The translations under genes and the position numbers were made by a program. Under the pieces are notes generated by a model, which did not search any database, was not told where the DNA came from, and saw only the letters and a program-made list of their open reading frames with translations. 39,497 bases of DNA. It comes from a virus. Shown piece by piece: positions 3,061 through 16,499 of the stretch. Within the stretch, counting starts at the first letter, position 1, and the number at the start of each line of letters is the position of its first letter. The stretch lies in IMG/VR virus record IMGVR_UViG_3300010153_000023, positions 1 through 39,497 of that record, one strand, 5' to 3'.

Positions 3061-3953
3061 TAATTGGATTCCTCAACATTAACCATTGAAGCTACTAGGT
3101 CAGCATCAGTAGCACTAAACGAACTTACATTAGCTCTATCCCATTCATCATTTACATACTTATCGTGCTTAGTTATCCAATCAGAAAAGATAATAAGTTT
3201 ATCAGAGTCATCCTCTAAGTGACCTATCTTATCTCCTACCTCAGATTCAAAAACAGCATAAGTGTTACCGTTAGCCATCGTAGCTTCTACACCATTAAGT
3301 TTTTGAGAATATACTATAGTACCTGTCTCTCCACTTTTACTTTGTAATGCAGTGTATACCTTTTTAAGTTTATTATAAGAAGGCATATTCTTGAACTCAA
3401 ATACGCAAGGTGTCCACTTATCTATGTAATCCTCTTTAATAACACCTTCTTCATCGACAGGATTATTAAGTTTAACTTCACCTAAGACAAGAACAGTTCT
3501 TTTCACATTACGTATAGATTGCTGTTGATCAGGCGTAAGAGTATAGAAGTCTTCAACGTAACCCATATGCCTGTTACCATTAAAGCCACCCTGTGTATCT
3601 TTAAGATCCATACTAAATATACTACCTTGAGCAGGACTTATTGTGACACTTTTTAAGAAGTTATTGTCTTCAGCTAACCACTTACTCCATCTCTCTCTTA
3701 CAGAGAAAGTTCGTATTTCTACACCATCACTATATAAATTCTCTTCTTTACTTAAACTAAGCTTAAAAGATGTAGGCGGTACTATTTCAGTTTTAACTTT
3801 CTTACCATTCACTTCTACTTCACCCATAATAGACTTATTTAAAAGACTAAGTTGAGCTAAAGAAGACTGAGAAACTGTATTTGTGTAGACGGGTATACCC
3901 ATCATTTCCTTAATTGATGTACCCTCTTGAGGTACTAATGCTATATCTGACAT
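3060..3953 (-). CDS. Hypothetical replication-cluster protein, possible ssDNA-binding protein
   Basis: A 297-aa protein with no recognisable motif. It starts MSDIALVPQEGTSIKEMMGI and ends in an acidic, polar tail (DADLVASMVNVEESN). It sits between the polymerase and the Cas4-like nuclease, the position that T7 gp2.5-type single-strand binding proteins occupy in related genomes, and an acidic C-terminus is common in such proteins. That role is positional inference only. A 42-base gap with an AAAGGA ribosome binding site separates it from the polymerase gene. Confidence 0.7.
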   Translation of the reverse strand: MSDIALVPQEGTSIKEMMGIPVYTNTVSQSSLAQLSLLNKSIMGEVEVNGKKVKTEIVPPTSFKLSLSKEENLYSDGVEIRTFSVRERWSKWLAEDNNFLKSVTISPAQGSIFSMDLKDTQGGFNGNRHMGYVEDFYTLTPDQQQSIRNVKRTVLVLGEVKLNNPVDEEGVIKEDYIDKWTPCVFEFKNMPSYNKLKKVYTALQSKSGETGTIVYSQKLNGVEATMANGNTYAVFESEVGDKIGHLEDDSDKLIIFSDWITKHDKYVNDEWDRANVSSFSATDADLVASMVNVEESN

Positions 3954-3995: not shown

Positions 3996-6044
3996 TCAAA
4001 CGTCTTTTGTGTCAAGCCAATTAGCTCCTATTTTAGCTTCTAAAAGTAGTGGAACGTTCATGGTCACACCATACGTTTCTTCTATGATAACATTAAGATC
4101 TTTGTTAAGTGTATCTATTATAGATATGACGTAAGGTATCTCTGTAGGGTGTACGTCAACTACTGTTGAGTCATGCACCGTATTAACTAGACAAGACTGC
4201 AGTTTACTTAGTCTCTCCTCTAGTTCTACCAATACAAGGGGTACTATATCTCCAGTACTAAACCCTTGCACAGGGTAATTCTTAATCATAGTGAAGCTAG
4301 ACACTCCACCATTTTGCCTACGTACTACTTTAGGAAAAGCGTACTGCCTTCCGCTGGGTGTAGTAATCTTCTCGAAGCGTAACGCCTCTTCAGCTAAACT
4401 CTGATGCCAAGCAGCTATGCCTTGGTACTTCTCGTTAAAGTGATCGTAGTATGCACCCTCTGCTTTTGATTTACCATATGAACTCGCACCAAAAAGAGGG
4501 GCAAATGTATGAGATTTTGCGGTAGTACGAGAAATAGGCTGCCCTGCATCACTAATAACTTTAGCTGTGTAGCTATGTACATCAAACCCTTGGTTGATCT
4601 CTGTGATAGCTACAGGGTCTTGTGAGAGAAATGCAGCTACACGGAACTCTAGTTGAGCGAAGTCTGCCTCCAGGATCTGACCGCCATCCCATCTAGATAT
4701 AAACACTTTCTTAACTGGGAACGTATTTCCACGGGGCATATTCTGCATATTAGGATTACGACCTGAGAACCTACCTGTAGATGTTACGTGTTGTGTAAGA
4801 CTTACGTGTAAGAAGTTATCTGGTTTAGTAAATATATCTATACCTTCAACGAAAGAAGATAAGTAAGACGATACAGCAGATAGTCTTTTTAAATCAGTCA
4901 AGAACTTTATAGCTTCATCCATATTATTATTCTTAGCTGTAGCTATTAGTGTATCTAAGTTCTGTTTACTCGTACTAAAACCATTAGCACTAACCCACTT
5001 CTTCGAGGGTGCAATAAGTCCTAGCCCAGCTAACTGATTTAATTGCTTCAGTTGATAGCCACGAGTATCACACCCCACACACCTATTAGGTTTAGCGAAA
5101 CGAGTGCCATCTTTCTTAGTTTTATAGGTCTTACCTTCACCTAAACATACAGGGCAAGTGTAAGCAGTTGTACGCCTAATTAATTTACTGTTAGCTTCTA
5201 CGGCATCTTTGTACTCAGCAGGTGTCCTAGTATGCTCAAATAAATCAGCCCACTCTTTCTTATTATCTACCTTACGGCTAAATATAACTTGTGACATTTG
5301 TTCTGGGGAGTTTAAATTAATAGGAGTGTCACCCATTAATAGCTTGACTTGATCGTGCAACCTATCTTCTAGTATTGCTTTCTCATTCTCAAACTCAGTA
5401 CGCACTTTTACTAATGCGGCTCTGTCTACCTTAAAGCCTGACATATACATACGAGTAAGCGTCTGACAAACTTTAAATGTTAGATCTCTTACAGTAACCA
5501 TGCCTAATGATTCATCTAAAGAATAACTCTTGAGTTGGTGTTCATACAAGGCACACGTAGTATCTAAGTCACACCCTAAGTAATAAGTTAACTCATCAAG
5601 AGGTATCTCATCTGTGTTGTAACCTTTCTTAAAGTAAGCCTTGAGTGTATCATCTTTCTGAAAAGGTAAGTTTGCTCTGATAGCACATTGCTCTAAGGAC
5701 AGCGGAAACTTTTGTCCTCGTATGAGTATGTATGCCGCCAGCATCGTATCCCACACCGCCCCATCATACTTGAAGCCACTCGCCCAGAGCCACATCAAGT
5801 CGTACTGAGCATTGTGCATGATGAGTAGTGTAGTCTCGTCTAATGCTTGCTGTACTAACTTATAGTTAGCACCACTAGTATCCTTATATTCAGTGTGATC
5901 AAACGTAAGCATATATCTCTCTGTTGGTATGTCTACGTTCTTAAACCCTACCTGTACTAGAGAGTTTGTTGGCTCAAAGGGATCTAGATGTTTCTTACCA
6001 CCTCGTTTAGTTACTGTATTCTCTACATCTAATACTAGTCTCAT
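3996..6044 (-). CDS. Family A DNA polymerase with DnaJ-like zinc finger
   Basis: A 682-aa replicative polymerase. The 3'-5' exonuclease domain is complete: D6 and E8 (Exo I), N78 and D82 (Exo II), Y155-x3-D159 (Exo III). A central DnaJ-type zinc finger carries CPVCLGEG (C297, C300) and CVGCDTRG (C322, C325). Polymerase motif A is LEADFAQLEFR (D461). Motif B is RTTAKSHTFAPLFG (K510, F514, F518), aligning with E. coli Pol I Lys758, Phe762 and Tyr766. Motif C is VHDS (D625) where HDE is usual. The embedded DnaJ-like finger is known from HMO-2011-type marine phages. The gene lies 2 bases downstream of the helicase in the replication operon. Confidence 0.95.
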   Translation of the reverse strand: MRLVLDVENTVTKRGGKKHLDPFEPTNSLVQVGFKNVDIPTERYMLTFDHTEYKDTSGANYKLVQQALDETTLLIMHNAQYDLMWLWASGFKYDGAVWDTMLAAYILIRGQKFPLSLEQCAIRANLPFQKDDTLKAYFKKGYNTDEIPLDELTYYLGCDLDTTCALYEHQLKSYSLDESLGMVTVRDLTFKVCQTLTRMYMSGFKVDRAALVKVRTEFENEKAILEDRLHDQVKLLMGDTPINLNSPEQMSQVIFSRKVDNKKEWADLFEHTRTPAEYKDAVEANSKLIRRTTAYTCPVCLGEGKTYKTKKDGTRFAKPNRCVGCDTRGYQLKQLNQLAGLGLIAPSKKWVSANGFSTSKQNLDTLIATAKNNNMDEAIKFLTDLKRLSAVSSYLSSFVEGIDIFTKPDNFLHVSLTQHVTSTGRFSGRNPNMQNMPRGNTFPVKKVFISRWDGGQILEADFAQLEFRVAAFLSQDPVAITEINQGFDVHSYTAKVISDAGQPISRTTAKSHTFAPLFGASSYGKSKAEGAYYDHFNEKYQGIAAWHQSLAEEALRFEKITTPSGRQYAFPKVVRRQNGGVSSFTMIKNYPVQGFSTGDIVPLVLVELEERLSKLQSCLVNTVHDSTVVDVHPTEIPYVISIIDTLNKDLNVIIEETYGVTMNVPLLLEAKIGANWLDTKDV

Positions 6045-11578: not shown

Positions 11579-11890
11579 TTATCCTTTCACTAAGGTTAGA
11601 TGTGGTGTTTTCTTTTTAAGACTAAGGTAATCTGGATGATCTTGTAACATAATGTTTACCGCCTCCCTAAACATCTCAGGAAAAGCATTTCCCATATGCT
11701 GACTAGGTGATCTCTTTTCTACAGAAAAACTGTACTCAGGAAACTTATGTTTTAACACCTTGCATTTCTGCAAGGCATTATCTTTCCTTAAAAAGGACAT
11801 AACAAAATACCTGTTTTGCTCGTGAGATAAAGGAACAAAATGTATATCTTGTTGTGTCTCCATAATTATATTGAATGATTTATTACTCAT
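11579..11890 (-). CDS. Hypothetical 103-aa protein
   Basis: Starts MSNKSFNIIMETQQDIHFVP. Contains FPEMFREAVNIMLQDHPDYL and a basic end (KKKTPHLTLVKG). ATGA overlap with the DUF932 gene upstream indicates coupling to it, so a partnership is possible. No known domain. Confidence 0.66.
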   Translation of the reverse strand: MSNKSFNIIMETQQDIHFVPLSHEQNRYFVMSFLRKDNALQKCKVLKHKFPEYSFSVEKRSPSQHMGNAFPEMFREAVNIMLQDHPDYLSLKKKTPHLTLVKG

Positions 11891-12768
11891 GCCGCTAGTA
11901 GCTCCTTAAATGTTGTTGAGTTAGTCCACTTGACTACCTTCTGTTCACGTTCCCACATTGATGTAGCACGAGTATCGTTACCCATATCTTTTAACTTAAA
12001 GCCGTTATCAGTGTGACTACTGTAGTTAGTCATGGCACTATACAAAGCCCAGAGGTTCTTACCTCTAACAGAAGCTTCATCTATAAACAAGTCATACATA
12101 TTACTAGCCATACGCTTAGACATACCCATAGGCTCTAACAATTCTTTTAAGTTGTCCATTTGAGACGCACCGAAGTTTGTGTCAGCCATACGCTGTAGGT
12201 ACTTAGCGTGTTCTATGAAGTTATTGTGTGACTGCTTTATCTCATCAACGAAGTTACTAAGACTAAAGCCTGATGTATTCTTCTTACGTACTTGCTCGTA
12301 TGTACCAGTAATAATACCGTTAGTACAAAAGTTATCGACTGCACCGAACACACCCAAGTTACTCTTAGTGCCGTCTATACCGTGCCACAAGATAGCTCGT
12401 TGAGATACCTCAGTTGTATGCTTATCAGTACGGATAGTGTAAGATATGTTAGGGAACACTATGTCTAGTAATGCTACTGCACCATTATGTGCTGAACTAA
12501 ACCTAGGTATAACCTCTGACGTATCCTCTGAACCGAAGTTCTCTACGATTGCATTGACGATGTTCCTGAAGAAGTCACCGTGAGGTACAGACGGAAACCC
12601 TGCACCCACAATACCCAAGACCTCATCAGTATTGCCGTTGATGACATACTTCTTACCCTTGAAGCGTGTGTCTTCGTATCTAATAGGGAAGTCTAGGTGC
12701 TGAGGCACTTCGAAGTCTGTAGTTAAGTTAAAGTATTCTTTTTGGTAGTTTGTTGTATCTAAAGCCAT
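11887..12768 (-). CDS. DUF932 phage/plasmid-like protein
   Basis: A 293-aa protein starting MALDTTNYQKEYFNLTTDFE. This ATG was chosen over one 15 bases upstream because AAAGGAAA sits at the right distance. The pattern YVINGNTDEVLGIVGAGFPSV, the IVFPNISYTI strand and the FGAVDNFCTNGIITGTYEQV segment are typical of the DUF932 (TIGR03299-like) family found on phages and plasmids. The role is unknown, though relatives lie among replication or anti-host genes. The leader contains dyad element 1 and an upstream TTGACA inside an inverted repeat. Confidence 0.85.
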   Translation of the reverse strand: MALDTTNYQKEYFNLTTDFEVPQHLDFPIRYEDTRFKGKKYVINGNTDEVLGIVGAGFPSVPHGDFFRNIVNAIVENFGSEDTSEVIPRFSSAHNGAVALLDIVFPNISYTIRTDKHTTEVSQRAILWHGIDGTKSNLGVFGAVDNFCTNGIITGTYEQVRKKNTSGFSLSNFVDEIKQSHNNFIEHAKYLQRMADTNFGASQMDNLKELLEPMGMSKRMASNMYDLFIDEASVRGKNLWALYSAMTNYSSHTDNGFKLKDMGNDTRATSMWEREQKVVKWTNSTTFKELLAA

Positions 12769-12803
12769 TTGTTTTCCTTTCATAGCTTAGTGAGTTGAGC
12801 GTC

Positions 12804-12819
12804 CGAGGTAATGACCTCG
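12804..12819 (-). promoter_or_regulatory. Leader dyad element 1 (CGAGGT-N4-ACCTCG)
   Basis: Six-base-pair dyad around a 4-base centre, 35 bases upstream of the DUF932 start. On the leftward strand it reads GTTCGAGGT-CATT-ACCTCGGAC. It is one of five related copies in leader regions between 12.8 and 16.5 kb. Confidence 0.75.
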
Positions 12820-12833
12820 AACACTTTAGTTGT

Positions 12834-12868
12834 ACAACAGAGATATCATATAGTAATCCTGTTGTCAA
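12834..12868 (-). promoter_or_regulatory. Inverted repeat with TTGACA, probable control site
   Basis: ACAACAG (12834-12840) and CTGTTGT (12859-12865) form a 7-bp inverted repeat with an 18-base spacer. Leftward TTGACA lies at 12863-12868, overlapping one arm; the best -10 at 17-base spacing (TATCTC) is weak. GTTGTACAAC, a 10-bp palindrome, overlaps the other arm. It could be a promoter with an overlapping operator for the DUF932 gene. Confidence 0.45.
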
Positions 12869-13116
12869 ATGAGGTTCTGCATACTTATATATTTACCGTA
12901 TGCTTTTTTAAGTGATGATGCTGATCCTTTTACTTTTCTGTCGCTAGATTGATAAAACAAACAGTCAGCCCACAACAGTATGGAATCCATCTTGGGTTTA
13001 TCATCTACGTCTATCCAATAATACATATGAGATTTTTTGAAGATGCGAGGTACTGGTTCTTTATTTAAAACGCACCAATCATAAAGACGTTTAGTTATAC
13101 GAAGTTTATTATTCAT
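12865..13116 (-). CDS. Hypothetical basic 83-aa protein
   Basis: Starts MNNKLRITKRLYDWCVLNKE; basic, with an aromatic YYWIDVDDKPKMDSILLWAD middle. Overlaps the upstream gene by 8 bases. It ends just before the inverted-repeat region and so closes this leftward group. No family recognised. Confidence 0.65.
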   Translation of the reverse strand: MNNKLRITKRLYDWCVLNKEPVPRIFKKSHMYYWIDVDDKPKMDSILLWADCLFYQSSDRKVKGSASSLKKAYGKYISMQNLI

Positions 13117-13360
13117 CTCGATACAAATCTATTAAACGATAGTGTTCAACTGGATCATCAGTGTTACCTGCTACATAAATAGAAAAAACTTTGCGTCCTT
13201 TATTATCTTTCCATAAACGCAGATCTAATACATTATCGTATTCTATTGTTTCATCATCAGGGTAACTCCATAGATTATTATTCTTGGGATCACCGTACTC
13301 CCTATTCATCTTAATTTTCTTTCCGTGATGCATTACGGATTGTTTTATTATCTGTTTCAT
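13109..13360 (-). CDS. Hypothetical 83-aa protein
   Basis: Starts MKQIIKQSVMHHGKKIKMNR after a clear GAGGAG ribosome binding site. Contains WSYPDDETIEYDNVLDLRLW; beta-rich. Overlaps the downstream gene by 8 bases. Function unknown. Confidence 0.66.
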   Translation of the reverse strand: MKQIIKQSVMHHGKKIKMNREYGDPKNNNLWSYPDDETIEYDNVLDLRLWKDNKGRKVFSIYVAGNTDDPVEHYRLIDLYRDE

Positions 13361-13454
13361 TAGTATCTCCTCTGTTTTTAGATAACATTTGTTTTAAGTA
13401 GGCACTACTCCACCACTTATCTGCGCGTAGTGCCTTACGTGTACGTTTGCACAC
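13311..13454 (-). CDS. Possible GTG-started 47-aa basic peptide
   Basis: A frame starting GTG reads MCKRTRKALRADKWWSSAYL and fills the otherwise empty 105-base gap between two genes, then overlaps the next gene by 50 bases. The ADKWW-x3-YLKQML pattern resembles a small basic peptide family I have seen in marine phages. The ribosome binding site is weak and the start is not ATG, so this is uncertain. Confidence 0.35.
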   Translation of the reverse strand: MCKRTRKALRADKWWSSAYLKQMLSKNRGDTNETDNKTIRNASRKEN

Positions 13455-13465
13455 CGTAGTTTTTC

Positions 13466-13723
13466 TTAGGTTCTTTTTGCAAAACAATATAGTGCCTCCT
13501 CCATAGTGGCGTAGTAGCTACCCTCAGCCCAAGAGTTGTCATCTATATTGTGACGGTAAGCAGTGAAGCATACGTAAGGGTGTAGCTTATGATTGTGCCT
13601 GTAACATACACCACACCAGTACGCATTCTTGAAGTCTCGTAGTGGTATGGGTCGCCACGCTATTATAGGAAAGCTGTTAAGGCTTTCGGGTATGTCTTGT
13701 ATATAAGTTAATCCTATAAGCAT
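13466..13723 (-). CDS. Hypothetical 85-aa protein
   Basis: Starts MLIGLTYIQDIPESLNSFPI and contains WRPIPLRDFKNAYWCGVCYR with two cysteines and several histidines further on (CYRHNHKLHPYVCF), which could bind a metal. It starts 2 bases after the upstream stop. No family recognised. Confidence 0.62.
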   Translation of the reverse strand: MLIGLTYIQDIPESLNSFPIIAWRPIPLRDFKNAYWCGVCYRHNHKLHPYVCFTAYRHNIDDNSWAEGSYYATMEEALYCFAKRT

Positions 13724-13725
13724 TT

Positions 13726-13944
13726 TTATTTTACCTCCTCTAATAGTTTTTCTACATACTCTAAAGCCTTCTCAATCCTAGCCATAGCCAATGCACTTTT
13801 ACCTCTAGCTTGTCTTATTCTAGTTTGTTCCAACAAAGTAGATCGTATGTACTCTAAGTACATTTTATGTGTTTTTAGTTTTTTAGTTAAGAACTTTAGG
13901 TTTGCATCAGTAACAAATTTTATTTCTTTAATCATATTGTGCAT
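13726..13944 (-). CDS. Hypothetical 72-aa helical protein
   Basis: MHNMIKEIKFVTDANLKFLT at the N-terminus, then a long basic helix rich in arginine and lysine (LLEQTRIRQARGKSALAMAR). The start codon overlaps the upstream stop by one base and has AAGGAG at 8 bases. Likely a small helical nucleic-acid or protein-binding factor, but without a named family. Confidence 0.66.
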   Translation of the reverse strand: MHNMIKEIKFVTDANLKFLTKKLKTHKMYLEYIRSTLLEQTRIRQARGKSALAMARIEKALEYVEKLLEEVK

Positions 13945-14339
13945 TATTTTATCTCCTTGTTTTGTGTTTCAGTGAATAGATCTAGGTTACGCCATCTAAC
14001 GTAACCTAACTCATTTTTATAGAAGTCTTTAAGCCATTGGCTATCTGACTTGTTATCCCAGTTAGTGTGTAAACCTATATGCTTTTTGATGTCATTTATA
14101 GTGATAGGTCTATCTACAACCTTACCTCGTACCTCTGTACGTAAGTAAACACCTCGCATAGCTTCAATGAAAGCCATACGTTTGTGGTAATTAACGTAAT
14201 TCTTTTTAGTGATCTCTCCGTAGCCTACACTAGCTCCAGCCCATATTAGTGTTTCGGTTAAGTTAGATAAGGTATTATCTTCTTTCATACATACATTATC
14301 GAAGTCTTCTACTGCTTCGCAGTTCCAGTTAAGTGACAT
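13944..14339 (-). CDS. Conserved phage protein of unknown function, 131 aa
   Basis: Starts MSLNWNCEAVEDFDNVCMKE. The segments TETLIWAGASVGYGEITKKN and TINDIKKHIGLHTN resemble a conserved hypothetical family of marine tailed phages with no assigned role. It follows dyad element 2 by 30 bases and a strong ATGGAGGA ribosome binding site, so it is probably controlled as its own unit within the left arm. Confidence 0.74.
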   Translation of the reverse strand: MSLNWNCEAVEDFDNVCMKEDNTLSNLTETLIWAGASVGYGEITKKNYVNYHKRMAFIEAMRGVYLRTEVRGKVVDRPITINDIKKHIGLHTNWDNKSDSQWLKDFYKNELGYVRWRNLDLFTETQNKEIK

Positions 14340-14369
14340 TCTATGTCCTCCATAAGTTAAAGTTTAGTA

Positions 14370-14385
14370 CGAGGTAGCTACCTCG
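14370..14385 (-). promoter_or_regulatory. Leader dyad element 2 (perfect 16-bp palindrome)
   Basis: CGAGGTAGCTACCTCG is fully self-complementary. It lies between the stop of the 197-aa gene and the start of the 131-aa gene, 30 bases before that ATG. No good promoter hexamers lie directly upstream, so here it seems to be an internal leader element. Confidence 0.75.
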
Positions 14386-14404
14386 AATGGTTATCGTTAC
14401 TTGA

Positions 14405-14998
14405 TTATCCTCCTATTATGCAAGTTGCGTGATACGCAGATACCGCATCACCTGTAGTTAATTTCTTGTTAGCTCTGTTACCAGCTACGTAGTCGCACCA
14501 AGTATTCCACCAATACTCAGAGCCACCAGTTTCCTGAGTTAAGAGTACGTATTTCTGTATCTTCTTAAGCTTAGTCTCTGGCTTAACAGTCTTAGCGAAC
14601 TTTAGTGCAGCACGATCTAGGCCTAACCTATCGAGGTTATGACTATCGAGACACGCTACATCTAACCCTACTAACTGAGCCACAAATGCCGCCTTGACTA
14701 TGCCTAAGTTGGGTACGTTAGTGAGTACATCTATAGCACCAACTGGGTCGTTATGTTTGACTGCTACCTTGAGTGCTTGATGCAATACGTGCTTGTGTTC
14801 TACAGCGTACAAGTAACCATTACGTTTCATAGTCATTGCTATACTGGTTGCACCCTCATTAGCTACACCATCCATAAACTTGCCTACGTTAGACAATGCA
14901 TTCTGAATAGTGCCAAGCACAAACGTTATACCTATTACAGTGTTGTCGGGGTTCTTCAGTATGAACTTAGCTATTTTTTTGTTGTCACGTTTATACAT
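14405..14998 (-). CDS. Helix-hairpin-helix-like phage protein
   Basis: A 197-aa protein starting MYKRDNKKIAKFILKNPDNT. An ATG 12 bases upstream overlaps the GGAG ribosome binding site and was rejected. Residues 95-121 (VPNLGIVKAAFVAQLVGL, then ACLDSHN) resemble the helix-hairpin-helix and Asp motif of HhH DNA glycosylases (vPGxGxxxAxfxxxLxG, then a DxHNxxR-like block). A DNA-binding or base-excision role is possible, but the catalytic lysine of true glycosylases is not evident. It has its own TTGACA/TATACA promoter and dyad element 3 in its leader. Confidence 0.68.
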   Translation of the reverse strand: MYKRDNKKIAKFILKNPDNTVIGITFVLGTIQNALSNVGKFMDGVANEGATSIAMTMKRNGYLYAVEHKHVLHQALKVAVKHNDPVGAIDVLTNVPNLGIVKAAFVAQLVGLDVACLDSHNLDRLGLDRAALKFAKTVKPETKLKKIQKYVLLTQETGGSEYWWNTWCDYVAGNRANKKLTTGDAVSAYHATCIIGG

Positions 14999-15034
14999 AT
15001 TATTCTCCATGTTGTTTAAGATTAAATTGTAGTG

Positions 15035-15050
15035 CGAGGTCGTTACCTCG
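15035..15050 (-). promoter_or_regulatory. Leader dyad element 3
   Basis: On the leftward strand GTTCGAGGT-AACG-ACCTCGCAC, 36 bases before the 197-aa gene. The best promoter of the left arm ends 11 bases upstream, so transcription would start about 5 bases before the element and the mRNA would begin with this hairpin. Confidence 0.78.
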
Positions 15051-15061
15051 AACTGTTTACT

Positions 15062-15090
15062 TGTATAACTAAAGATAAAGGGGATGTCAA
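15062..15090 (-). promoter_or_regulatory. Sigma70-type promoter TTGACA-N17-TATACA
   Basis: Leftward -35 TTGACA (15085-15090) and -10 TATACA (15062-15067) with an exact 17-base spacer. The -35 starts just after the stop of the 32-aa membrane peptide. It would drive the HhH-like gene and those downstream using the host RNA polymerase, which fits the absence of a phage polymerase in this window. Confidence 0.75.
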
Positions 15091-15091
15091 A

Positions 15092-15190
15092 TCACCGCCA
15101 ATCATCCCACAGCATATACAATGCAAACGCTATGAATGGCACAAATATAAATACATAAAGGCCAATCAATATAGTAATATCAGTATTCAT
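15092..15190 (-). CDS. Tiny transmembrane peptide, 32 aa (copy B)
   Basis: MNTDITILIGLYVFIFVPFI, then AFALYMLWDDWR. One hydrophobic helix with a short charged C-terminus. Its ATG overlaps the stop of copy A by one base. The C-terminal halves align (VPFIAFALYMLWDDWR against TPIVAFIVYILWEQWLWR), so the two look like a tandem duplication. Function unknown; small membrane peptides can act in lysis timing or superinfection effects, which is speculation here. Confidence 0.6.
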   Translation of the reverse strand: MNTDITILIGLYVFIFVPFIAFALYMLWDDWR

Positions 15191-15282
15191 TATCTATCCC
15201 TCCACAGCCACTGCTCCCACAATATATAAACTATAAATGCTACAATAGGCGTAGCTATGATTGCTGTTAGTGCCATAAGCAT
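15190..15282 (-). CDS. Tiny transmembrane peptide, 30 aa (copy A)
   Basis: MLMALTAIIATPIVAFIVYI, then LWEQWLWRDR. A single membrane helix ending in a tryptophan-rich basic tail. Stop and next start share a base (TAATG), so both copies should be made together. Short length limits confidence, but the paralogous neighbour supports it. Confidence 0.58.
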   Translation of the reverse strand: MLMALTAIIATPIVAFIVYILWEQWLWRDR

Positions 15283-15289
15283 TATGTCA

Positions 15290-15526
15290 TCATGCATCGT
15301 AGGCATCCTCATCATACATAGCCCCATCAAGTATAGCTAAGATAGCGTTAGCTAATTGCCTAGCTGTCTCAAACTTTACGCTACGCCCATGCACTAAATC
15401 ACCATTATTTGTTATAATAGCTACCTCACAGTGATTATCAAACTTAACGATACTTACATTACCTATAGTAATATGCGGTGTATTTAATGCACCTGTAGTA
15501 CACTGAAATTTAAAATCTTTATCCAT
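15290..15526 (-). CDS. Hypothetical 78-aa protein
   Basis: Starts MDKDFKFQCTTGALNTPHIT and contains FDNHCEVAIITNNGDLVHGR followed by a helix (FETARQLANAILAILDGA). Beta-rich with one helix and an acidic end. Preceded by AAAGGA and by dyad element 4 at 29 bases. No family recognised. Confidence 0.68.
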   Translation of the reverse strand: MDKDFKFQCTTGALNTPHITIGNVSIVKFDNHCEVAIITNNGDLVHGRSVKFETARQLANAILAILDGAMYDEDAYDA

Positions 15527-15555
15527 TTATATATCCTTTACTTTAAAGTTTAGTC

Positions 15556-15571
15556 CAAGGTAGCTACCTCG
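15556..15571 (-). promoter_or_regulatory. Leader dyad element 4 (one wobble pair)
   Basis: Leftward strand reads GTTCGAGGT-AGCT-ACCTTGGAC, 29 bases before the 78-aa gene. The only change in the family, C to T in the second arm, turns a G-C pair into a G-U pair in leftward RNA but would be a C-A mismatch in rightward RNA. Confidence 0.72.
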
Positions 15572-15655
15572 AACGGTTAATATGAAACGCCTAACGCGCC
15601 CCATGCAATACATACTATCATGATTTACAGTATGCATAGCATAAGACAAGCTTAA

Positions 15656-15683
15656 GCCTAGCGCATAATTAAACACGCTAGGC
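15656..15683 (-). terminator. Stem-loop after the 208-aa gene, possible terminator
   Basis: GCCTAGCG and CGCTAGGC form a perfect 8-bp stem with a 12-base loop, 27 bases past the stop of the 208-aa gene. In leftward RNA the trailing sequence is UUAAGCUUG, a weak U-tract, so it may attenuate rather than fully terminate. A second dyad (CATACT/AGTATG, 15611-15634) lies between it and element 4. Confidence 0.5.
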
Positions 15684-15709
15684 GAAATATTAAATTGTAA
15701 TAGTTTAGT

Positions 15710-16336
15710 TTAAGATAGGTCTTTAAAGTTGTCCTGAATTAAAGCAACAACCTGAGCTTCAGTTTGACCTAGTGATAGAGCTAATGTGACTAGTTCAAGT
15801 GACATATCGACAATGGCATCTAAACCGTTCTCCGATTTATTTTGAGCCTTAAATGCTACGTTTGATTTAGACTTAGACTTAGACGTTTTCTTAGGCTTAG
15901 TGGTTGCAGTAGGTCGAGTATAGCCGCGCGCTTTTTTGGCTAGGCTGTCTAGGCCTTGGAAAGCAATTGACGGATCTTTAACGAAGGCCTTGCGAATGTT
16001 ATCCGCGTTGGTAGCGATATTCATTAGAGCCGTTCTAGACTTAGAGTTATATTCCATGCCAAACCTAGATTTATCTACTGAAGCTTTAAATTTTTGGTTA
16101 TTAGTTGGATATAGTAATTTGTATTGCTCAATAGCATTACCCACAGTGATATAAGTTTCAATTTGAGATACACCATTTAGTTTCGCTTGATCCATTAAAT
16201 CCGCGCAATAGTCTAATAATTCGTTTGGTTGATAGGCCACAGCCTCTTTGCCTCGACCTATTGTGAAAACGCCTGAGCTATCCATAACGCACTTTAGAGT
16301 TGAAGGTGTAGCGATCTTTAGTTGTACTTGTGTCAT
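15710..16336 (-). CDS. Leading left-arm protein, 208 aa, possible regulator
   Basis: Starts MTQVQLKIATPSTLKCVMDS; this ATG was chosen because ACGGAGAA sits directly upstream, while an earlier ATG has none. The middle is helical, a basic linker follows (TKPKKTSKSKSKSNVAFKA, about residues 145-165) and the end is an acidic helical domain. It is the first gene of the left arm, next to the divergent control region, so an early regulatory or DNA-binding role is plausible, but no helix-turn-helix is evident. Confidence 0.72.
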   Translation of the reverse strand: MTQVQLKIATPSTLKCVMDSSGVFTIGRGKEAVAYQPNELLDYCADLMDQAKLNGVSQIETYITVGNAIEQYKLLYPTNNQKFKASVDKSRFGMEYNSKSRTALMNIATNADNIRKAFVKDPSIAFQGLDSLAKKARGYTRPTATTKPKKTSKSKSKSNVAFKAQNKSENGLDAIVDMSLELVTLALSLGQTEAQVVALIQDNFKDLS

Positions 16337-16438
16337 TTTTATTCTCCGTAAATTAAGATTAAGTTTTAGTAGTACAACTCTTATTACAAATTGAGTAACA
16401 TAAGTCAAGCGACCCTAAGTAAAATAATTTATTTAGTG

Positions 16439-16454
16439 CGAGGTAACGACCTCG
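16439..16454 (-). promoter_or_regulatory. Leader dyad element 5
   Basis: Leftward strand GTTCGAGGT-CGTT-ACCTCGCACTAAA, in the control region 102 bases before the 208-aa gene, further than in the other four copies. A leftward TTGACT follows it, so the gene may have a second promoter downstream of the element. Confidence 0.75.
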
Positions 16455-16499
16455 AACTGCTATAGATATGGGTATACCATTTAGAAAAACTTTTAGAGG

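Follow-up and report, generated by a model that had tools for sequence, protein, structure and literature searches.

The window analysed here is the whole 39,497-nucleotide (nt) stretch at positions 1 to 39,497 of IMG/VR virus record IMGVR_UViG_3300010153_000023. Its left arm, read leftward, carries five copies of an inverted repeat, the dyad CGAGGT-N4-ACCTCG, and the first gene of that arm encodes a protein of 208 amino acids (aa) that we regard as the most likely candidate for the regulator binding them. An original prediction, made from the letters of the window, had assigned it to an HMO-2011-type phage, and this label is correct: its family-A DNA polymerase is 68% identical to that of CRP-207 and 57% to that of HMO-2011, lies within 57-68% identity of HMO-2011 and the CRP phages over the full length, and is encoded leftward after integrase, primase and helicase, with terminase and portal running rightward. 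HMO-2011-type phages are among the commonest in the sea. The features of the left arm, in the order in which they are read, are as follows; L007 is a close relative described below.

16436..16457, minus strand: dyad 1, GTTCGAGGT-CGTT-ACCTCGCAC, about 100 nt upstream of the 208-aa candidate regulator gene
15710..16336, minus strand: first gene of the left arm, 208-aa candidate dyad-binding regulator
15553..15574, minus strand: dyad 2, GTTCGAGGT-AGCT-ACCTTGGAC; one base changed (G-U if RNA); the 78-aa gene starts 29 nt further on
15290..15526, minus strand: 78-aa gene following dyad 2; no dyad precedes the homologous gene of L007
15062..15090, minus strand: promoter-like TTGACA-N17-TATACA, read from sequence, just upstream of dyad 3
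15032..15053, minus strand: dyad 3, GTTCGAGGT-AACG-ACCTCGCAC, before the 201-aa gene
14405..15010, minus strand: 201-aa gene following dyad 3, probably starting at 14998 (MYKR)
14367..14388, minus strand: dyad 4, ATTCGAGGT-AGCT-ACCTCGTAC, about 20 nt past the stop of the 201-aa gene and 30 nt before the 131-aa gene
13944..14339, minus strand: 131-aa gene behind dyad 4; 86% identical in L007, with a dyad in front there too
12801..12822, minus strand: dyad 5, GTTCGAGGT-CATT-ACCTCGGAC, within the 298-aa gene's leader; L006 and L007 have different dyads here
11887..12783, minus strand: 298-aa gene, conserved in HMO-2011-type phages, following dyad 5 and probably starting at 12768 (MALD)

The five copies lie where they had been predicted (12804, 14370, 15035, 15556 and 16439); four are exact and the copy at 15556 carries a single change. 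Allowing at most one mismatch, we found five matches in the window, all within 12804-16454, against a mean of 0.00 and a maximum of 0 in 100 dinucleotide shuffles. At up to three mismatches the count is not above chance, and we therefore take the dyad family to be these five copies. Inside the 298-aa gene, AGAGGTTCTTACCTCT at 12051-12066 is a two-mismatch dyad with symmetric changes; it is weak and may be due to chance. Read leftward, the copies share GTTCGAGGT-N4-ACCTCG-N-AC with the predicted centres, except that ATT replaces GTT at 14370. All five lie between credible genes, and the distance of 29-36 nt to a start codon that had been claimed for four of them holds if the 298-aa and 201-aa genes begin at MALD and MYKR; the remaining one is the distant dyad at 16439. 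A ACTAAACTTTAA-like stretch had also been noted after several dyads; it is common to 14370 and 15556 and weaker at 15035 and 16439.

A 60,448-base-pair (bp) contig that contains the window, IMGVR_UViG_3300025099_000002, has the same five dyads and no others. The exact dyad sequence of the window, sought elsewhere in IMG/VR, gave only single, chance-like matches, and a nucleotide search of the window region in isolate phages returned no match. The promoter-like sequence at 15062..15090 was missed by our promoter consensus scan because the scan demanded a T at the end of the second hexamer. No promoter was seen at dyad 4, while dyad 5 is placed in a 5' untranslated region (UTR), behind another likely promoter. 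Between that promoter and dyad 5, a palindrome, GTTGTACAACTAAA (window ~12829-12842), is kept in the window, L006 and L007, and GTTGTACTACTAAA reappears upstream of the 208-aa gene (window ~16361-16375). These sequences are possibly a second operator.

Dyad families and the first-gene protein

We searched HMO-2011-type phages blindly for any six-base arm and spacer that formed a perfect dyad repeated at least three times. The families recovered include AGTCCG-N4 in HMO-2011, GTCCAA-N2 in CRP-345 and CRP-1, and TGTCACT-N1 in L016 (8 copies). Among contigs fetched with the unrelated 298-aa gene, 25 of 77 held a dyad family, compared with 0 of 77 shuffled versions. Across the group, including many IMG/VR contigs, there are at least 10 distinct arm sequences; the arms seen are CGAGGT, TGCGGA, GTCCAA, GTCCGA, CCCCAA, AGTCCG/GGTCCG, GTCGCAA, TGTCACT, TCATGG and TTTTCA. 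Every arm family has many copies directly upstream of a Shine-Dalgarno stretch, and most loci hold 2-9 dyads of 13-22 bp. Sites of what we call the GTCC branch have a central pyrimidine-purine step in ~96% of cases, which favours reading them as DNA sites.

Multi-copy palindromes beside a dedicated DNA-binding gene recall parS and ParB in outline, and some copies lie inside genes, as might be expected if the dyads served partition, replication or packaging and the first-gene protein were ParB-like or a structural DNA-binding protein. We consider this very unlikely: the sites are confined to the early arm, they stand just before start codons far more often than the control (119 of 210 versus 23%), and the protein has no family match to ParB or to any known protein.

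Where a locus with a dyad family extends far enough to show it, the early arm nearly always opens with a gene for a ~170-220-aa protein, built from helical N- and C-terminal parts joined by a low-complexity linker; the 208-aa protein has this layout, with a Lys/Ser/Thr linker. Comparison of these regulators with Pfam, PHROGs and NCBIfam gave only sub-threshold noise and no known family. A DUF3102-like resemblance, judged by eye, was dropped for want of library support. The window and L007 regulators match at E=1e-7, a hidden Markov model (HMM) of 78 GTCC-branch regulators matches that of L007 at E=2.6e-4, and a joint profile of the window and L007 proteins matches the GTCC branch at E=1.1e-4 with a probability of 57%. 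Along this chain of distant homology the 208-aa protein probably belongs to the GTCC-branch regulator family, with which it shares its early-arm position, one dyad lying upstream of the gene and four more downstream. For the distant classes L016, L065 and L091 the first gene was assigned by position and architecture, not by detectable homology.

Several further elements were seen in these phages. The tails of L041 (CRP-345), L042 (CRP-1) and L040 (HMO-2011) have a conserved stretch of ~90 nt (GCCTCGC ... GAAACGGCA-G-GCAGAGGAT) between dyad 1 and the regulator gene; it contains an internal hairpin, has no Rfam match, and may be a structured leader RNA. A longer second inverted repeat, GTTATATAACACTT-GA...TGA-AAGTGTTATATAAC, lies upstream of the dyad in L125, L126, L131, L132, L135 and the start of L033 (HMO-2011), where it overlaps promoter-like TTGAAA/TATAAC and has compensated variants such as GTTATTTATACTT. 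The non-coding head region of L044 (CRP-603), L045 (CRP-2), L041 and L042 holds several copies of TGTGATCACA, four of them in CRP-603, a phage without the dyad families described here. In the distant phage L023, GTCAGA-N3-TCTGAC dyads at 3642, 5019 and 15468 seemingly lie just upstream of -35 boxes, with a second palindrome near -10; L023 was omitted from the argument because no regulator was identified there.

According to the original prediction, absence of the element from the equivalent leaders of close relatives would refute it. The CGAGGT letters are indeed absent in L006 and L007, whose 298-aa proteins are ~90% identical to that of the window. The relatives instead have another dyad family at these leaders and, with it, a diverged regulator, as expected if operators and regulator are matched. 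At dyad 5, flanks conserved in all three phages (GTTGTACAACTAAA on one side, GCTCAAC and AAGCTATGA on the other) enclose GTTTACGGA-AAG-TCCGTAGAC in L006 and GTTTGCGGA-AAA-TCCGCAGAC in L007. L007 has five TGCGGA-N3-TCCGCA dyads at spacings close to those in the window; dyads 4 and 5 stand before homologous genes in both phages, whereas dyads 2 and 3 stand before different ones. Neighbouring proteins are mostly 86-89% identical between the window and L007 (one small protein, 49%), while the first-gene regulators are only 25-30% identical and all dyad arms have changed. The first-gene protein diverges much faster than its neighbours. The TGCGGA arm is retained in L209, which has a regulator 86% identical to the one in L007.

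Covariation of the regulator and its probable operator

Searching IMG/VR with the regulator alignment yielded 80 loci, every one of which has a dyad family within the same few kilobases (69 with GTCCAA-N2-TTGGAC and 11 with GTCCGA-N2-TCGGAC). Regulator and dyads are both present in the isolates CRP-345, CRP-1 and HMO-2011, and neither was found in the regions scanned of CRP-207, CRP-603, CRP-2, HTVC033P, CRP-738, CRP-212 and CRP-3. Two additional loci with a regulator were apparent exceptions. L048 carries hybrid sites, GTCCGACGTTGGAC, in 4 copies. L056 has a family of its own, CCCCAA-N2-TTGGGG (CCCCAACGTTGGGG, 5 copies, at 4266, 5020, 5961, 6443 and 7400), which had been overlooked through a letter filter. 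Its regulator has PDQRR in place of DRRRR, paired with the CCCCAACGTTGGGG operators, hinting that this segment helps to read the outer two operator bases.

On a tree of 75 aligned regulators, the operator letter switches between A and G at least 8-9 times. We ranked alignment columns by tree-independent contrasts, and the best were 130, 113, 120, 117 and 121. Column 130 belongs to an operator embedded in the gene; the other four all fall inside predicted helix 112-126, the second of two adjacent helices, and the spacing of 113, 117 and 120 places them on one face of that helix in the predicted model. The combination S113+K117, which was picked after seeing the data, occurs with GTCCGA in 11 of 11 cases and with GTCCAA in 0 of 64, and changes in a consistent direction in 8 of 8 independent contrasts. 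Column 113 alone is consistent in 6 of 8 contrasts and opposite in none. Only two A-class regulators in the tree have S113 (L132 and L092), and both have R117. The hybrid GTCCGA-N2-TTGGAC sites of L048 and L092 go with S113+R117, the regulator of L048 reading S-R-R on the 113/117/120 face. Helix 112-126 is the predicted recognition helix of the GTCC branch, covarying with the operator letter.

The embedded operators point the same way. Over 68 non-redundant loci, the part of the regulator gene that codes for the linker holds 65 exact copies. Most GTCCAA phages spell this segment TCC AAY GTT GGA (Ser-Asn-Val-Gly, SNVG) and most GTCCGA phages TCC GAT GTC GGA (Ser-Asp-Val-Gly, SDVG). Because the silent third base of Val shifts with the other half-site, selection acts here on the nucleic acid, far from start codons. 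The window and L007 regulator genes have no embedded operator. Taking the pairing of protein and DNA as a whole, we are highly confident that the dyads of the GTCC branch are DNA-level operators of the first-gene protein.

It could be supposed that the dyads have no trans-acting partner and belong to a mobile or duplicated leader cassette, copied by recombination within each phage, in which case their identity inside one genome would reflect recent copying. Flanks are indeed shared past the dyad (44-nt repeats in L007, and the leader consensus), and it would be in keeping with such copying that dyads 2 and 3 precede different genes in the window and in L007. However, the centres vary while the arms do not, the embedded coding copies have different flanks, regulator residues follow the arm letter in all eight independent contrasts, and all regulator-bearing loci have a dyad family, all of which leaves the cassette scarcely credible. 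Duplication probably spreads dyad sites without explaining how arm and regulator are matched.

DNA operators or RNA hairpins

The original prediction hesitated between the operator of a dimeric regulator, perhaps a private regulon of the phage, and an RNA hairpin. As hairpins in the 5' leader RNA, whether or not this phage protein binds them, the dyads would control translation, mRNA processing or antitermination in the manner of N and nut. Leader copies precede start codons by 15-24 nt in the GTCC branch and 29-36 nt in the window, on the transcribed strand; the window leaders fold into hairpins of 6-9 bp, two of the five well beyond shuffles; the dyads of L006 and L007 differ through an exchange of A-U for G-C on both sides; and the regulator is the first early gene, like lambda N. 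Against this, the arms are invariant within each phage and the loops are free, the opposite of hairpins recognised by their loop. The GTCC branch has 337 exact operator copies versus 3 with one mismatch, and none of the 3 variants is a G-U pair. Innermost pairs too close together for RNA pairing remain complementary (GTCCAA-N2, GTCGCAA-N1 and TGTCACT-N1). We softened a claim that spacers of 1-2 nt alone exclude RNA hairpins; since the RNA could still fold into a shorter stem, the evidence is limited to the symmetry of the innermost pairs. Many GTCC-branch copies lie within genes, others ~224-306 nt upstream of the regulator, and HMO-2011 uses the same 16-mer in both orientations. The operator letters track one helix face, and Rfam has no match in the window region or the isolate heads, which also counts against a hairpin.

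Given the 337 copies versus 3, the symmetric inner pairs, the in-gene copies and the helix-face covariation, we judge RNA hairpins improbable and conclude that the dyads very probably act at the DNA level. The dimeric operator with its private regulon is thus the favoured half of the original prediction, by virtue of the covariation, the exact copies and the sites within genes, and the 208-aa protein, which that prediction had named among those to be tested for binding, is the leading candidate.

For the window itself, we assign a probability of about 0.8 to the reading, built on sequence comparison, that its dyads are DNA-level operators of a phage-encoded regulator, most likely the 208-aa protein. 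Several observations weigh against it. The asymmetric sites (L048, L092, L116 and window 15556, representing about three lineages) can all still pair G with U on the transcribed strand, which is the behaviour expected of an RNA hairpin. The GTCC-branch HMM has no direct match to the window regulator, the link running only via L007 and the 57% profile. Structure models of the regulators have middling confidence, and when the L093 model was compared with PDB folds, none matched significantly. We could find no conserved promoter standing at a constant distance from the dyads. Searches of bacterial genome contigs and of plasmids revealed no regulator relative, and for this reason we do not adopt a role in prophage or lysogenic immunity.

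Proposed mechanism and comparison with known systems

As DNA operators, the dyads would be bound by a regulator dimer that reads the two CGAGGT half-sites and leaves the centre unread; we infer both the direct binding and the dimeric state of the window regulator. Its positions would all be in 5' leaders: close to +1 for dyad 3, between two genes for dyad 4 and within the 5' UTR for dyad 5. From there it would repress the early genes as well as its own gene (autoregulation). At sites that abut a promoter, RNA polymerase would be stopped from initiating, and at the others it would be stopped while elongating, as at stoperators, and early expression would be limited as infection proceeds. We think it likely that the regulator acts by repression; an elongation roadblock as part of that repression is a more tentative suggestion, to which we give somewhat less than an even chance. 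Many sites lack an obvious promoter or fall inside genes.

The isolate literature that we searched for this phage group contains no mention of a promoter, operator or repressor, and early-gene control in HMO-2011-type phages is apparently undescribed so far. Each lineage has its own regulator-operator pair, so that the group forms a natural record of a gene switch changing its address code. We suggest, tentatively and at odds below even, that these phages possess an undescribed regulator family whose address code has been switched repeatedly (at least 8-9 A/G changes in one branch, with hybrid intermediates) and in which the embedded operator forces a change of linker residue. The candidate family is named here, with sites in the cultured phages HMO-2011, CRP-1 and CRP-345. 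With its switches and hybrids, this natural series makes joint specificity change of factor and sites directly testable, and it suggests predicting cross-repression between phages from sequence. If the reading is true and the regulator acts in trans on superinfecting phages, arm sequences would be immunity groups readable from metagenomes.

In lambdoid phages, a dimer of CI or Cro reads palindromic half-sites, and heteroimmune relatives differ in both recognition helix and operator; the dimer proposed here would likewise read palindromic half-sites. Lambdoid operators cluster at two promoters, whereas here single sites are scattered over leaders and genes, and the protein has no CI/Cro match. 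Lambda N reads an RNA hairpin (boxB) with a conserved loop, plus boxA. The likeness to N and nut lies in the first gene of an early operon, a cognate dyad ahead of it, and phage-specific pairs. Unlike boxB, the dyads have free loops and fixed arms, and the leader consensus contains no boxA-like stretch.

The start-associated sequences (SAS) and extended SAS (ESAS) of Cluster K mycobacteriophages (TM4, Adephagia) are closest in placement. ESAS are inverted repeats just upstream of the starts of non-structural genes, with a subcluster-specific consensus, and were suggested to be DNA-binding sites of differing specificity, the binding factor being left undetermined (PMC3203893). Each ESAS is an imperfect repeat of 17 bp and goes with a distinct SAS located at the ribosome-binding site, while the arms described here are exact and a candidate cognate gene is proposed. 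In the leader consensus there is an ordinary Shine-Dalgarno stretch but nothing resembling GGGATAGGAGCCC, so that it lacks the conserved 13-bp SAS of Cluster K.

Cluster A mycobacteriophages (L5, Bxb1) carry numerous similar sites for their repressor, placed between genes throughout the genome; autoregulation of the repressor has been proposed, and site consensus and repressor differ together between related phages (PMC6550527, PMC9283540). The L5 sites are asymmetric, 13 bp long, bound by a monomer and present in 20-30 copies per genome. Ours are instead palindromic with a free centre, mostly 2-9 per locus, and are not the asymmetric 13-bp kind; the regulators have no credible Pfam, PHROG or NCBIfam match, as judged from library scans with no direct comparison to L5 gp71. 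In its proposed working the system comes closest to the Cluster A stoperators, and in its placement to the Cluster K ESAS, yet features that define each of them are absent: it is a new candidate regulator family employing a known kind of multi-site control.

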